From positions 1 to 48,398 of the forward strand of contig CALHNS010000094.1 of assembly GCA_938035125.1 (NCBI GenBank): 48,398 nucleotides of DNA, written 5' to 3'. This document shows positions 11,693 through 16,949 of the stretch, piece by piece. The DNA comes from an uncultured Granulosicoccaceae bacterium. Its GTDB lineage: Bacteria > Pseudomonadota > Gammaproteobacteria > Granulosicoccales > Granulosicoccaceae. The notes below the pieces were generated by a model. That model was given only the letters and a program-made list of their open reading frames with translations, made no database searches and was not told the DNA's origin. Positions within the stretch are counted from its first letter, which is position 1, and every line of letters begins with the position of its first letter. The translations under genes and the position numbers were made by a program.

Positions 11693-12694
11693 ATGGGCAT
11701 ATTCAGTTTTCTTAAGCGTCAACGCGACACCCAGCAGGACCAGAACGATGCCCCGCTAGATAAAAAACTCAACCGCACTCGCTCCACTTTCAAAGAGAAC
11801 CTAATGGGTTTTCTACGTGGCAAGAAACCCATCGATGCCGATTTACTTGAAGAGCTTGAAAATCAGCTCATCATGGCAGATGTGGGCGTTGATGCCACCG
11901 CCTCCATCATGGATTCGCTCAATGAGCAGGTTTCCAATACGAAAATGGCCGATTCCGAAGGCTTACGCCTTGCGTTGCAAAATGAACTTAAGCGTTTGCT
12001 GAATCCTGTAGAGCAGCCGCTGATCATTCCTGAACAAGACACCCCCTTCGTTATTTTGGTCGTGGGTGTAAATGGTTCGGGCAAAACCACCACCATTGGA
12101 AAATTAGCCAAGCAATTGCAGCAAGGTGGAAAGAGTGTGATGTTGGCCGCAGGGGATACGTTTCGAGCGGCAGCCATCGAGCAATTGCAAACCTGGGGTG
12201 AGCGCAATGATGTGCCGGTTATATCTCAGCAGCACGGTTCAGACTCAGCATCAGTAATTTTTGATGCGTTGCAATCGGCTACGGCGAAAAATATTGATGT
12301 ACTCATCGCTGATACAGCCGGTCGCTTACATACCCAAGCAGGCTTGATGGATGAGCTTAAAAAAGTCAAACGAGTGATGAGCAAATTGGATGAACATGCG
12401 CCTCACGAAACACTGATTGTGTTAGACGGTGGCACAGGCCAAAATGCACTAAGCCAAGCGCGAGAGTTTCATGCCGCCATGGACTTAACAGGGCTTGTCA
12501 TAACCAAACTGGATGGCACCGCTAAGGGCGGCATCGTTTTCGCCATAGCTAATACCCTCGGCATCCCTATTCGCTTTATCGGTGTCGGCGAAAAAGTAGA
12601 TGATTTAGAAGTGTTCCAAGCCGAGCGATTTGTAACCGCCTTAACCGATACAGGCACCGATTCAGGCATAGATACCGATACGGAAGCCTCATGA
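11693..12694 (+). CDS. ftsY: Signal recognition particle receptor FtsY
   Basis: FtsY is the membrane-associated SRP receptor GTPase that delivers ribosome-nascent chain complexes to the Sec translocon. The 333-residue protein has a short charged N-terminal region (about 30 residues, much shorter than the acidic domain of E. coli FtsY), then the N domain (LLEELENQLIMADVGVDAT). The G domain follows with P-loop GVNGSGKTT (125-133), DTAGRLH, VLDGGTGQNAL and TKLDGTAKGG. The stop overlaps the ftsE ATG by 4 bp, so ftsY-ftsE-ftsX form one coupled operon. A TATACA hexamer at 11662-11667 may be the -10, but no good -35 was seen. Confidence 0.97.
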   Translation: MGIFSFLKRQRDTQQDQNDAPLDKKLNRTRSTFKENLMGFLRGKKPIDADLLEELENQLIMADVGVDATASIMDSLNEQVSNTKMADSEGLRLALQNELKRLLNPVEQPLIIPEQDTPFVILVVGVNGSGKTTTIGKLAKQLQQGGKSVMLAAGDTFRAAAIEQLQTWGERNDVPVISQQHGSDSASVIFDALQSATAKNIDVLIADTAGRLHTQAGLMDELKKVKRVMSKLDEHAPHETLIVLDGGTGQNALSQAREFHAAMDLTGLVITKLDGTAKGGIVFAIANTLGIPIRFIGVGEKVDDLEVFQAERFVTALTDTGTDSGIDTDTEAS

Positions 12695-13398
12695 TTTCGT
12701 TCCAACATGTTAGCTTGGCCTATCGCACAGGCCAGCTCGCACTTGACGATCTTAGCTTTCATTTAAGGTCGGGTTCGTTTACCTTTTTAACCGGGCATTC
12801 AGGCGCTGGCAAAAGCTCTTTACTTCGACTGATTGCACGCTTAGAAAAACCCACCAGCGGTGAAATTCAAGTAGGCAACACAGCCTACAGCACCTTAAAA
12901 ACTCGGCAAGAGCCCAAGCTGAGACGCCAAATGGGCATAGTATTTCAAGACAACCAACTGCTTTACGATCGAAGCGTGTTTGATAACGTAGCGTTGCCGT
13001 TAATCATTGGTGGGTATAAATTTAAAGATATAAAAACTCGAGTAATGGCGGCATTGGAGCGTGTGAACTTAGCCAGCCGATACGCAGAGAACCCCATCAA
13101 TTTATCTGGGGGTGAACAGCAACGTGTGGGCATCGCACGCGCTGTGGTTGCACGTCCCAAGTTACTGCTGGCCGATGAACCTACCGGTAACCTAGATGCA
13201 GAAATAAGTGAAGAAATCATGAAACTGCTGTTGCAATTCAACGCATCTGGCGTATCTGTTTTATTTGCTACACACGATCGTGAGTTGTTAAACAGTTTCA
13301 AATTTCCGCAATTAGTGCTTGAAGCAGGTCGTTTATCAAACGCATCCGATGCCAGTTTACATCTTCATGCTAAACAAGCACCTGAGACAGTTTCATGA
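12691..13398 (+). CDS. ftsE: Cell division ATP-binding protein FtsE
   Basis: FtsE is the ABC ATPase that with FtsX activates periplasmic murein hydrolases through EnvC-type partners at the division septum. It shows Walker A GHSGAGKS (35-42), the Q-loop VFQDNQLLYDR, signature LSGGEQQRVGIARA, Walker B LLLADEPTGNLD and the switch His in FATHD. The 235-residue length is slightly above the usual 220, with the excess at the C-terminus. It overlaps both ftsY and ftsX by 4 bp. Confidence 0.97.
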   Translation: MISFQHVSLAYRTGQLALDDLSFHLRSGSFTFLTGHSGAGKSSLLRLIARLEKPTSGEIQVGNTAYSTLKTRQEPKLRRQMGIVFQDNQLLYDRSVFDNVALPLIIGGYKFKDIKTRVMAALERVNLASRYAENPINLSGGEQQRVGIARAVVARPKLLLADEPTGNLDAEISEEIMKLLLQFNASGVSVLFATHDRELLNSFKFPQLVLEAGRLSNASDASLHLHAKQAPETVS

Positions 13399-14342
13399 AA
13401 GAACCGGTTCTAGGCTCTCGCTGGAATTACACCCAGCGCGGCTACGCTTTAACTCAGAGCATTCGTCAACTAAGACAACGAAGCGCTGCCACTTTATTAA
13501 CTTTATTTGTACTGGGCACCACCCTGGCGTTGCCTGCCGTTTTCTGGTTCGGTTCGGCATCATTATCAAATCTTGTCAATGGCTCTGTGGGCGAGGAAAG
13601 CCTAACTGTGTATTTGTCTCTGGACGTGCCAGATTTGGAAGGTGCAGCGCTTGCTAAAGAGTGGCAGGAACACCCCGCTATTCGAAAAACCACTTACGTA
13701 TCACGCGATGAAGCATTAGCCTTATTTCAAGAACAAACAGATTTACAAGACGCTATCGCAGCCCTAGGATCGAACCCCTTACCAGGTGCCATCGTGGTTT
13801 ACCCCAGCTCATCGGATTCGGCATCGGCTATGGCAGAAAATGCAGAAGCATTAGCGGCCCGATTTAACCAAATGCAAACCGTTGAGCGAGTTCAAATAGA
13901 TCTAGATTGGGTTCGAAAGCTGCAGTCCGCACTGAATTTATTTCAAATCATTGTCTCTTTACTGGCAATTTTCTTAACCCTTACTGGGCTGTTAGTGATT
14001 GGCAATACCGTTCGACTAGAGCTACTACGCCGTCAACGCGAAATGCAGGTCAGTACTTTATTAGGTGCCAGTCGTTCATTCTTAAATCGCCCCATCGTGT
14101 ACACCGGCACGCTGTATGGGTTGCTGGGAGGAGCCGTGGCGGCCGTATTGGCAACTGTTTCGTACAGCTTCATTAAAACCCCGGCCGATCAACTGGCAGC
14201 TCAATACGCCAGCCCATTTAGGCTTGCTTTGCCTTCAGCTGGTCAATTTTTGACCATTGTGGCTGTATGCACCTTACTGGGCCTGATTGGTGGGCTAATG
14301 ACCGTACTACGACCCTCTCCATCTATTCTCACGAATCGGTAA
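13395..14342 (+). CDS. ftsX: Cell division protein FtsX
   Basis: FtsX is the membrane partner of FtsE. The 315-residue protein has a cytoplasmic N-terminus containing RQRSAATLLTLFVLGTTLALPAVFW (first membrane segment). A periplasmic loop follows (VYLSLDVPDLEGAALAKEW and YVSRDEALALFQEQTDL, typical of the FtsX extracellular domain). Three more membrane segments surround ELLRRQREMQVSTLLGASRSFLNRPIVYTG, the FtsX/MacB-like coupling loop. It starts at the ATG overlapping the ftsE stop. About 160 bp separate it from rpoH. Confidence 0.95.
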   Translation: MKEPVLGSRWNYTQRGYALTQSIRQLRQRSAATLLTLFVLGTTLALPAVFWFGSASLSNLVNGSVGEESLTVYLSLDVPDLEGAALAKEWQEHPAIRKTTYVSRDEALALFQEQTDLQDAIAALGSNPLPGAIVVYPSSSDSASAMAENAEALAARFNQMQTVERVQIDLDWVRKLQSALNLFQIIVSLLAIFLTLTGLLVIGNTVRLELLRRQREMQVSTLLGASRSFLNRPIVYTGTLYGLLGGAVAAVLATVSYSFIKTPADQLAAQYASPFRLALPSAGQFLTIVAVCTLLGLIGGLMTVLRPSPSILTNR

Positions 14343-14362
14343 GAACATAGTAACTAATTGTT

Positions 14363-14395
14363 TTTATTGATATTTATTTATTTTTTATCAATAAA
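14363..14395. terminator. AT-rich inverted repeat between ftsX and rpoH
   Basis: TTTATTGATA (14363-14372) and TATCAATAAA (14386-14395) are a perfect 10-bp inverted repeat with a 13-base T-rich loop. It lies 20 bp after the ftsX stop. It may be a weak terminator or RNA-processing hairpin, or a binding site for an AT-specific DNA-binding protein. The stem has little GC and is not followed by a T-run, so terminator function is doubtful. Confidence 0.4.
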
Positions 14396-14437
14396 TTAGA
14401 CCTTGAAACTCAATTTAACAGTGAACTACGCCGCTAA

Positions 14438-14464
14438 TTAGCACTCTATCCTTGTGAGTGCTAA
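14438..14464. promoter_or_regulatory. CIRCE operator (HrcA site) upstream of rpoH
   Basis: TTAGCACTC, nine bases, then GAGTGCTAA: an exact match to the CIRCE consensus (TTAGCACTC-N9-GAGTGCTAA). It ends 37 bp before the rpoH ATG, within the likely leader or promoter. CIRCE is the binding site of the repressor HrcA, whose activity is tuned by GroEL. A CTTGAAA hexamer at 14402-14408, like a -35 element of the sigma-32 type, lies upstream, but no convincing -10 was found. The ribosome site GGAGAAG is at 14489-14495. Confidence 0.93.
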
Positions 14465-14501
14465 AATACCAGTAATGGGACTGGACACGGAGAAGTAACT
14501 T

Positions 14502-15386
14502 ATGAGTACTGCCCTAACAATGAACCATTCAGCTGCCACAGCCGTTCCGGTAATCGCCGACGATCTGAACAGCTATTTGGCAAAGATTTCAAACGCTACG
14601 CTGCTTTCTGCCGAAGAAGAGCAGAAGCTTGCTCGCCAACTGCGCAGTCATGATGACTTAGAAGCAGCTCGTCAGCTGGTCATGTCGCAGCTCCGGTTTG
14701 TAGTGCACATCGCTCGTAGCTACAAAGGCTATGGACTGCCAATGGCCGACTTGGTGCAAGAAGGCAATATTGGCCTAATGAAAGCGGTTAAGCGATTTGA
14801 TCCAGACATGAACGTGCGGCTAATTTCCTTCGCCGTTCATTGGATTCGAGCGGAAATTCACGAGTTCGTCATTAAAAATTGGCGCATCGTGAAAGTGGCC
14901 ACCACCAAGGCTCAGCGTAAGTTGTTTTTCAAACTAAGAAGCGCGCCTAAAAAACTCAATTGGTTTAGCCAAGAAGAGGTGAACTCTGTAGCTGAAGACT
15001 TGGGTGTGGATCCGTCCGTAGTCATGGAAATGGAATCGCGCATGCACGGTCATGACAGTGCATTTGATGCACCTATAGGCAGCAGCGAAGATCGTAATTT
15101 AGCTCCTGCCGACGTCTTACACCGAGAAGAGACCGATCCATCTGAGTTGCTGGAAACCGATGATATTCGTCAACAAGCTTTAGCCAGCCTATCCAATAGC
15201 ATGGATGATTTAGACGAGCGTAGCCGCACCATTTTGCAACGTCGGTGGTTAGCTGATCAGAAGTCAACACTTCATGATTTAGCAAACGAGTTCGGTGTGT
15301 CTGCTGAACGCATCCGCCAAATTGAAAAAGCGGCCATGAAAAAGTTAAAACTTGCCATGACCGGCAACGTATCCGTAGCTCACTAA
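14502..15386 (+). CDS. rpoH: RNA polymerase heat-shock sigma factor RpoH (sigma-32)
   Basis: RpoH directs RNA polymerase to heat-shock promoters. The 294-residue protein shows region 1.2/2 (LNSYLAKISNATLLSAEEE, VVHIARSYKGYGLPMADLVQEGNIGLMKAVKRFDP), region 2.3-2.4 (VRLISFAVHWIRAEIHEFV) and the RpoH box QRKLFFKLR (138-146) that distinguishes sigma-32 from RpoD and RpoS. Region 4 contains a helix-turn-helix (TLHDLANEFGVSAERIRQIEKAAMKKL). The ATG follows GGAGAAG by six bases. The gene follows ftsYEX, as in many Gammaproteobacteria, but its leader carries a perfect CIRCE element. This suggests HrcA repression in addition to any RNA-level or chaperone control. Confidence 0.97.
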   Translation: MSTALTMNHSAATAVPVIADDLNSYLAKISNATLLSAEEEQKLARQLRSHDDLEAARQLVMSQLRFVVHIARSYKGYGLPMADLVQEGNIGLMKAVKRFDPDMNVRLISFAVHWIRAEIHEFVIKNWRIVKVATTKAQRKLFFKLRSAPKKLNWFSQEEVNSVAEDLGVDPSVVMEMESRMHGHDSAFDAPIGSSEDRNLAPADVLHREETDPSELLETDDIRQQALASLSNSMDDLDERSRTILQRRWLADQKSTLHDLANEFGVSAERIRQIEKAAMKKLKLAMTGNVSVAH

Positions 15387-15416
15387 GAAGACGCTGACAA
15401 CTCGGCGCGGTATAGG

Positions 15417-15460
15417 TAAAAAAAGAGCCCTAGGTGATTACATTCACCTGGGGCTTTTTA
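15417..15460. terminator. Bidirectional intrinsic terminator between rpoH and sensor kinase gene
   Basis: AGCCCTAGGTGA pairs with TCACCTGGGGCT (one G-U pair) around a six-base loop. A-runs precede it and T-runs follow it on the plus strand, and the mirror image holds on the minus strand. It therefore serves both convergent genes. Confidence 0.9.
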
Positions 15461-15464
15461 TTAC

Positions 15465-16949
15465 TCACACGGGGCATTCTGTTTCAAACTTAACCGTGAT
15501 GGACAAACCAGGATTATTATCATCCAGTGTTACCGAAGCACAGTGCAAATCAGCCACCGCTTTAACTAATGTCATACCTAACCCAGTTCCCGGTGTGGTG
15601 CGGCTCGCTTCTAAGCGAAACATACGTTGAAAGAGCTTCTCGCGTAATTCTTCTGGAACCCCTGGCCCATTATCAGCCACTCGAAACCACGGTTCACCAT
15701 GGTATTCACCCGCATCAATGAAAACGGTTGTCCCATCAGGACAATGACGAATAGCGTTTTCTATTAAATTCACCACGATTTGCATCAGTAACTCTCGATC
15801 ACCCATTACGTGTTGAATTTCGGTGGGATCGAATAATACCTGTATGTGTTTACCAGCCTCTTCCACAACAGGTTCGTACACTTCTGCAACGGTACTAACC
15901 ACTTCAATTATATTCACTGGCTTAAACGCAGATTTTCGAGCACCCGCTTCAATTTGCGCAATGCGAAGAATGGCTTGAAAGGTGGAATTGATGTACTCAG
16001 CCTCATCCATCGCTTTATGTACTTCTTCTATTTCAATACCTTGTTCATATAATTTAGTGGAGGCACCTTCTAGCTGGATATACAAACGATTCAATGGCGT
16101 TTTAAGCTCGTGCGCCATATCTGAACTCATTTGTCGTAAGCCATCAACGTTTTGTTGTAAACGATCTAACGCATCGTTTACCCGAATAGAGAATTCATCA
16201 ATGTCATCACCACTATCATTTATCGGTAACCGACGAGCTAAGTTTCCTGCCGCAACAGATCGCATAACCAGTGTGATTCGATCGATACGACCGTGTGTTC
16301 GCCAAGCCGCATAAGCCGAGCCTAGTAAACCCAACCCCATTGAGAATAAAAAGAGCTTTATAAAACTGCGCGTTGCATCTACGCGTATGTTGTCAGCGTT
16401 TTCTAAATTGTGGGCAATGGCTATAGTGTTCACGCCAAGTAAACCCACAATAATTCGAACAGAACCTTCATACGGCAAGTTCATGTCCGAACCCTTAACC
16501 GTTGATAAACCCGGTTCTTTAACATCAATATTTAAAGTGCCTGCGATATCTTCGCCTTCACCATCGCGAAGTTGAAACCCACCATTAAGCACAAAAGGGG
16601 ACATTCTGCCCGGATGAGCAAGCCCCACGATGGCGTTTTCACCACCTGCTTCGTAAATGTTTAGCATGTTGATGTAACGATGGTTTAAGGTATCGTCCAC
16701 GCGAGACACAATGCCATCTTGCAAGAACTGATAAGACAGCCCCCAAGCAATAGAGAAGCAAAATAAATAAATAGCCGAAATCGCAAGCCCTAAACGAAAC
16801 GCAGAACTTCGATACAACTCTTTACTGAATAGCAGTTCCGAAAAACTGAAGGTGTGAAACTCACCCGGTTGGCGCAACCCTGAATTTTCGTCTAATGCCG
16901 GTGCAGGAAGCGTCGGGATTACAGCTGAATTGGGTTTTGATTCACTCAC
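15465..16949 (-). CDS. Membrane sensor histidine kinase
   Basis: The 494-residue kinase has a cytoplasmic N-terminus of about 50 residues and a membrane segment near 52-72. A periplasmic sensor of about 120 residues (no known fold recognised) and a second membrane segment near 196-216 follow, then HAMP to about 270. The HisKA H-box MAHELKTPLNRL has phospho-accepting His280. The HATPase segment contains NLIENAIRHC (N-box), VADNGPGVPEE (G1) and TGLGMTLVKAV (G2). Its start overlaps the stop of the response regulator gene by 4 bp, so both form one operon. The stimulus is not known. Its neighbours are rpoH (convergent) and the GH16 gene (divergent), which makes envelope or polysaccharide sensing possible but unproven. 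Confidence 0.92.
   Translation of the reverse strand: MSESKPNSAVIPTLPAPALDENSGLRQPGEFHTFSFSELLFSKELYRSSAFRLGLAISAIYLFCFSIAWGLSYQFLQDGIVSRVDDTLNHRYINMLNIYEAGGENAIVGLAHPGRMSPFVLNGGFQLRDGEGEDIAGTLNIDVKEPGLSTVKGSDMNLPYEGSVRIIVGLLGVNTIAIAHNLENADNIRVDATRSFIKLFLFSMGLGLLGSAYAAWRTHGRIDRITLVMRSVAAGNLARRLPINDSGDDIDEFSIRVNDALDRLQQNVDGLRQMSSDMAHELKTPLNRLYIQLEGASTKLYEQGIEIEEVHKAMDEAEYINSTFQAILRIAQIEAGARKSAFKPVNIIEVVSTVAEVYEPVVEEAGKHIQVLFDPTEIQHVMGDRELLMQIVVNLIENAIRHCPDGTTVFIDAGEYHGEPWFRVADNGPGVPEELREKLFQRMFRLEASRTTPGTGLGMTLVKAVADLHCASVTLDDNNPGLSITVKFETECPV

Follow-up and report, generated by a model that had tools for sequence, protein, structure and literature searches.

Textbook accounts of proteobacterial heat shock follow Escherichia coli, which does without HrcA, and the repressor and sigma-factor systems are usually described as alternatives. 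A perfect CIRCE, the HrcA-type operator, in front of rpoH, which encodes the heat-shock sigma factor sigma-32, raises the question of whether both systems act at one gene in an uncultured Granulosicoccaceae bacterium. An earlier reading made from the DNA alone (the sequence-only reading) had proposed exactly such stacking. We analysed the whole 48,398-base stretch carrying this locus (the window), the genome it belongs to, and samples of genomes from the family, class and phylum, and we consider it highly probable that the HrcA operator is merged into the rpoH promoter, where HrcA would repress a sigma70 promoter and an overlapping sigmaE-type promoter.

The site, TTAGCACTCTATCCTTGTGAGTGCTAA, has 0 mismatches to the CIRCE pattern TTAGCACTC-N9-GAGTGCTAA and was the sole match at up to 3 mismatches in the whole window, for which dinucleotide shuffles gave an expectation of 0.02. 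Between its last base and the rpoH ATG lie 37 nt, and the rpoH product scored 390.8 bits with the TIGR02392 RpoH model (cut-off 323.1) and 406.7 with the sigma-32 model NF005143 in a profile search; sequence match, ORF call and RpoH models thus confirm the mismatch-free CIRCE 5' of rpoH described earlier. The neighbourhood ftsY-ftsE-ftsX-rpoH is shared with E. coli K-12 (Table 1). By eye, two further repeats were seen around the gene, namely a perfect 10-bp A+T-rich inverted repeat with a 13-nt loop (TTTATTGATA / TATCAATAAA, 14363-14395) between ftsX and the rpoH promoter, and a hairpin-like repeat followed by TTTTT just 3' of rpoH (~15426-15459), a likely intrinsic terminator with only weak Rfam matches. 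An Rfam search of 14000-15600 returned five matches, every one below its own gathering score.

Table 1. Features at the rpoH locus, in window coordinates
Feature	Position	Strand	Basis or remark
ftsY	11693..12694	+	ORF and model search
ftsE	12691..13398	+	ORF and model search
ftsX-like gene	13395..14342	+	upstream neighbour of rpoH as in E. coli; TIGR00439 245.1 bits, just below the 255 cut-off
sigmaE-like -35 TGAACTA	14422..14428	+	5/7 to GGAACTT
CIRCE operator (HrcA-type), perfect	14438..14464	.	sequence pattern match
possible weak sigma70 -35 TTAGCA	14438..14443	+	4/6 to TTGACA; 18-nt spacer
sigmaE-like -10 TCTAT	14445..14449	+	last two left-arm bases and first three of N9; 16 nt after the -35
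sigma70-type extended -10 TGCTAAAAT	14459..14467	+	starts within the right CIRCE arm, ends 3 nt past it
predicted sigma70 transcription start	14474	+	7 nt after the -10 (14462-14467)
Shine-Dalgarno-like GGAG	14489..14492	+	by eye
rpoH, sigma-32, 294 aa	14502..15386	+	ORF and family models

What the sequence-only reading had missed is that the site appears to merge with two promoter-like elements. At the right arm, the TAA runs on as TAA-N-A-T, and the arm completes an extended -10 of the form TGN-TAANAT. To see how far this goes beyond the demands of HrcA alone, we aligned 118 rpoH CIRCE loci (119 from a scan of named genomes, one at an edge dropped) and used 30 groESL CIRCE loci as control (those given, of 102 matching genomes). 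The final T of the -10 was found at 116/118 rpoH sites versus 2/30 groESL sites, and in 24/24 species of the genus that could be scored; the outer arm bases, left free in the search pattern, were kept at 80 to 100%, the six core bases per arm being fixed by the pattern. These signals of promoter fusion, and the sigmaE-type ones given below, changed little when the set was thinned to 100 loci whose flanks were unlike. The geometry at groESL is different: the promoter lies upstream of the operator, and its -10-like TATNAT reaches into the first CIRCE base; relative to the -10, the rpoH operator sits 29 bp further upstream than the operator at the 30 groESL loci. The possible -35 coincides with the start of the left arm and is inseparable from the operator, and the combination TTAGCA-N18-TAAAAT, found once in 261 bases versus 0.7 expected from shuffles, is weak when taken alone.

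The second element, where present, runs through the left arm and the spacer, whose bases are free as far as HrcA goes. At the 118 rpoH loci, GGAACTT (at least 5/7) stood 16 to 10 nt before CIRCE at the exact offset in 48 and within 1 nt in 72, compared with a mean of 1.2 and a maximum of 5/118 at other offsets, and with 0/30 (exact) and 1/30 (within 1 nt) at groESL. The matching TCTNA, formed by the left-arm TC and the start of the spacer, was present at 46/118 rpoH loci versus 1/30 groESL loci. A sigmaE-type signal in the rpoH spacer, together with the different groESL geometry, suggests that the spacer at rpoH is constrained by a second promoter, as it seems to be from these alignments. The window genome encodes rpoE (TIGR02939, 313.3 bits), and the two ORFs after it look, by eye and from their position, like rseA and rseB.

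The strongest rival holds that CIRCE represses the sigma70 rpoH promoter only, and that GGAACTT-N16-TC is a separate, lineage-variable sigmaE promoter which overlaps it and is too weak here. The window's own elements speak for it, since TGAACTA-N16-TCTAT is weak against the sigmaE form, and so does the pattern across the class, which is strong but not universal: 70/118 loci lack GGAACTT at the exact offset and 46/118 even within 1 nt, examples being the Nitrosomonas europaea locus and two Pseudoalteromonas loci. However, in the genus the exact GGAACTT occupies this offset in 14/24 scored species and a match of at least 5/7 in 23/24, and GGAACTT and TCTNA are associated within the 118 loci (Fisher p = 1e-4). 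The spacing is also that found upstream of rpoH in E. coli K-12, where TGAACTT-N16-TCTGAT is what we take to be the sigmaE promoter P3, and a sigmaE-like promoter precedes rpoH in 14/30 hrcA-lacking genomes (2.9 expected from shuffles), as it does in 23/30 hrcA-bearing genomes negative for the strict pattern described below (1.7 expected). On balance we regard the sigma70-only arrangement as less likely and keep to an operator shared by both promoters.

HrcA control presupposes hrcA, and the window genome (3.54 Mb in 111 contigs, 92.5% complete) has a single such gene (PF01628 219.6 bits, TIGR00331 319.3 bits), with the next ORFs reading as grpE and dnaK, so the sequence-only reading, which an absent hrcA would have undone, stands on this point. 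There are two perfect CIRCEs in the whole genome, that at rpoH and one 54 nt before groES (groES and groEL were assigned from their ORFs by eye). The whole-genome pattern search found none at hrcA-grpE-dnaK; one more match, on contig C99 at the end of an ORF, has 3 mismatches and looks like chance. Sigma-32 promoters at the genome's chaperone genes were not convincing by consensus scan: the best scores were 8/13 for both hrcA and groESL versus shuffle means of 8.7 and 8.8, the best dnaK match (10/13) was equalled by 9% of shuffles, and the top match of 11/13, before grpE, is a score without a shuffle control. In the window, CTTGAAA at 14402-14408 had no matching -10. The downstream half of the proposed circuit, from sigma-32 to the chaperone genes, is therefore an assumption.

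The element was kept in close and distant relatives, as the sequence-only reading required. Among 57 relatives' genomes, which yielded 54 rpoH-type loci with 52 scorable, CIRCE with at most 2 mismatches lay upstream of rpoH at 45/52. With at most 1 mismatch it was present before 31/32 scored rpoH genes of the window's family, the exception (G029) being uninformative with its rpoH at a contig end and only ~100 nt upstream, and in 24/24 scored species of the genus. The 9-base spacer and the flanks vary among relatives, the arms hardly. The seven loci without CIRCE belong to G029, G037, G038, G041, G042, G055 and G048; no hrcA was found in G037, G038, G041, G042 and G055, while G048 has one. Two relatives showed peculiarities of their own. 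In one (G045, locus L020), a second CIRCE with 1 mismatch, TTAGCAGTC-N9-GAGTGCTAA, stands in tandem directly upstream of the perfect one and is likewise followed by AAT, which suggests two operator-promoter units, one stacked on the other, at this rpoH. Another (G012) carries a second RpoH-like gene at C77:8516-9316 (296 bits, below the family cut-off) beside a normal CIRCE-bearing rpoH.

We then turned to an evenly drawn sample of the class, comprising 369 genomes from 271 genera. A strict pattern, combining the exact 12-base core, a fixed distance range and the RpoH HWI[RK]AE codons, was met by 154/369 genomes and 117/271 genera, and hrcA was found in 268/369. Both were present in 144 genomes, CIRCE-rpoH only in 10, hrcA only in 124 and neither in 91; hrcA thus occurred in 144/154 strict CIRCE-rpoH genomes versus 124/215 others (Fisher p = 8.5e-16, each genome counted as independent). 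Many sites escape the strict pattern, and the DNA 5' of rpoH in pattern-negative genomes was therefore read directly for CIRCE with at most 3 mismatches; in shuffled versions of these regions the rate was 0. Among the hrcA-bearing ones (first 60/124 searched, 50 with rpoH, 49 scored), the element preceded rpoH in 41/49 and was absent in 8/49, and among those in which hrcA was not found (60/91 searched, 57 with rpoH, 55 scored) it was present in 7/55. For two of these seven, the assemblies reach 81 and 85% completeness, and hrcA may simply be missing from them. Taking the 126 hrcA-bearing class genomes with handles up to G206 together, 107 have CIRCE-rpoH (66 strict plus 41), 8 do not and 11 were unscorable. 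Most of the sampled class members with hrcA thus have CIRCE at rpoH, which is no peculiarity of this organism, and, as read from these genomes, its presence follows the presence of hrcA. Among the named genomes with the site are those of Nitrosomonas europaea, Pseudoalteromonas, Alcanivorax, Dyella, Methylocaldum, Variovorax and Thioalkalivibrio, Pseudoalteromonas luteoviolacea being one of the species. The two RpoH proteins nearest to that of the window among the 119 named loci, each labelled uncultured Granulosicoccaceae bacterium, were 73 and 72% identical to it. For the eight after them identity was 57 to 61%, and near-identical genomes therefore do not account for the pattern. Four sequence features expected of an HrcA/CIRCE regulon are found here together: an operator near a promoter, hrcA in the genome, groESL under the same operator and conservation tied to hrcA. 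The proposal of stacked systems made at the outset is partly supported, namely by operator, hrcA, conservation and co-occurrence with hrcA; it has to be amended in that the arrangement is not special to this organism.

The operator might also be a relic, still in place here after HrcA has ceased to control rpoH. Apparently decaying sites do exist in hrcA-less relatives: two sister genomes of one genus in which no hrcA was found (G237 and G110; loci L248 and L249), both among the seven hrcA-less carriers above, have TGTGCACTC-N9-GAGTGTTAA before rpoH with 3 mismatches each, which looks like a CIRCE decaying after hrcA loss, and a sigmaE-like promoter, TGAACTT-N17-TCTTA, is intact in both. In the window, by contrast, the site is perfect and hrcA intact, and every scored species of the genus keeps the site, which makes a relic very improbable. 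Scarcely credible is a role of the inverted repeat as RNA, a 5' stem-loop for rpoH mRNA stability or translation; CIRCE has been proposed to act so in the leaders of some groESL and dnaK transcripts. The perfect 9-bp repeat could fold into a hairpin in transcripts that enter from ftsX by read-through, but the conserved -10 places the predicted sigma70 start downstream of it, the free outer arm bases are kept to the letter, and retention of the site goes with retention of hrcA.

At the level of the phylum, we searched 200 genomes, 51 of the window's class (its own included) and 149 others, with a looser pattern of exact core and fixed distance. It gave 12 matches, 8 in the class and 4/149 outside, the latter all from one family and before sigma-32-like genes. 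Two of these four genes were assigned by model (NF005143, 286 and 277 bits, cut-off 241; below the TIGR02392 cut-off) and the other two by eye. In this family, at three loci (L347-L349), an element resembling TATAAT or TAAAAT lies, by eye, 6 nt past the CIRCE arm and not within it, the operator being the same and its fit to the promoter different, and at two (L346, L347) the gene preceding the sigma-32-like gene reads as ftsX-like.

E. coli offers the main contrast. No CIRCE was found in the 500 nt upstream of its K-12 rpoH, where the best match had 7 mismatches, and as a control it gave no match in the HrcA search. The E. coli rpoH mRNA is an RNA thermometer, from which the sequence-only reading had distinguished the circuit proposed here. 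No unusually stable 5' fold was detected over the window's rpoH start, which folded worse than shuffles (z +1.80, single-sequence fold), but the test is weak, as the E. coli rpoH 5' region itself reached z -1.15, not significant. CIRCE-bearing 5' regions were then taken from every second named locus (of 119), from 19 further loci and from the window. Of these 80, 78 were usable, and compared with 48 CIRCE-lacking regions they gave mean z-scores of -0.41 vs -0.51 (p = 0.58). The contrast with the thermometer is thus in keeping with the window's own fold and not with the comparison across loci, and finds no clear support; the idea of an RNA thermometer as a class-wide alternative to CIRCE was dropped, the z-scores being alike.

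In other species HrcA is kept active by free GroEL, and both GroEL titration and heat inactivate it. Applied to an operator merged with both rpoH promoters, this would give the following circuit. In unstressed cells, CIRCE-bound HrcA would mask the sigma70 core promoter, the extended -10 of which begins in the right arm; it would mask the -10 of the overlapping sigmaE-type promoter, at the left-arm end and spacer, as well. The operator would be freed when unfolded protein titrates GroEL, or when HrcA itself responds to heat, as in the thermosensor finding in another species (PMC8533110). Derepression of rpoH and groESL would then go together, sigma-32 would turn on the remaining chaperone genes, and the additional GroEL from groESL would make HrcA active again and close the loop, with envelope stress entering through sigmaE at the same spot. 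We infer HrcA binding and repression at rpoH from the sequence patterns above, and likewise infer the use of either promoter, the GroEL link and the sigmaE input in this genome.

Parts of this arrangement have precedents. With CIRCE/HrcA control of groESL it shares the operator, the window genome carrying both the rpoH and the groES site. For beta-, gamma- and epsilon-proteobacteria, Permina and Gelfand (2003), cited in PMC545781, may already list rpoH CIRCE sites, and RegPrecise likewise may. The idea of CIRCE before rpoH is in any case not new: for Geobacter sulfurreducens, a perfect CIRCE at -51 before rpoH was published in 2004 (PMC545781, text and Table 8), with the same operator, gene and a similar distance, and with groESL also a target. 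According to those parts of the paper, this is a single computational case in a delta-proteobacterium, in which hrcA-grpE-dnaK-dnaJ also has a CIRCE, unlike the window genome with none found at hrcA-grpE-dnaK, its promoter-like overlap and the breadth seen in the class sample. In Bordetella bronchiseptica, a sigmaE-type factor acts from a promoter immediately upstream of the rpoH homologue fam, SigE transcribing it in vitro (PMC3490749). That paper uses rpoHP3 as a sigmaE promoter, and its rpoH, fam and promoter parts make no mention of HrcA or CIRCE. Within the parts of the open-access literature on HrcA, rpoH and CIRCE that we covered, only PMC545781 puts CIRCE before rpoH, and neither a sigmaE promoter nested at an rpoH CIRCE nor a class-wide count was found. 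The operator and its combination with rpoH in one species are thus known, and the fused double-promoter anatomy and the breadth, not found described, are new in this sense.

For the gamma/beta class as a whole, we lean slightly towards HrcA control of rpoH being ancestral and prevailing, with one operator gating the sigma70 and sigmaE promoters, and E. coli having lost hrcA and CIRCE and kept the sigmaE promoter. The fused promoter-operator makes HrcA control directly testable. If the two systems are stacked in most hrcA-bearing members of the class, sigma-32 would there be set by transcription through a chaperonin-sensing repressor, and E. coli would be a derived exception; and if one operator gates both promoters, the supply of sigma-32 would respond, at one and the same site, both to the state of the chaperonin and to envelope stress.
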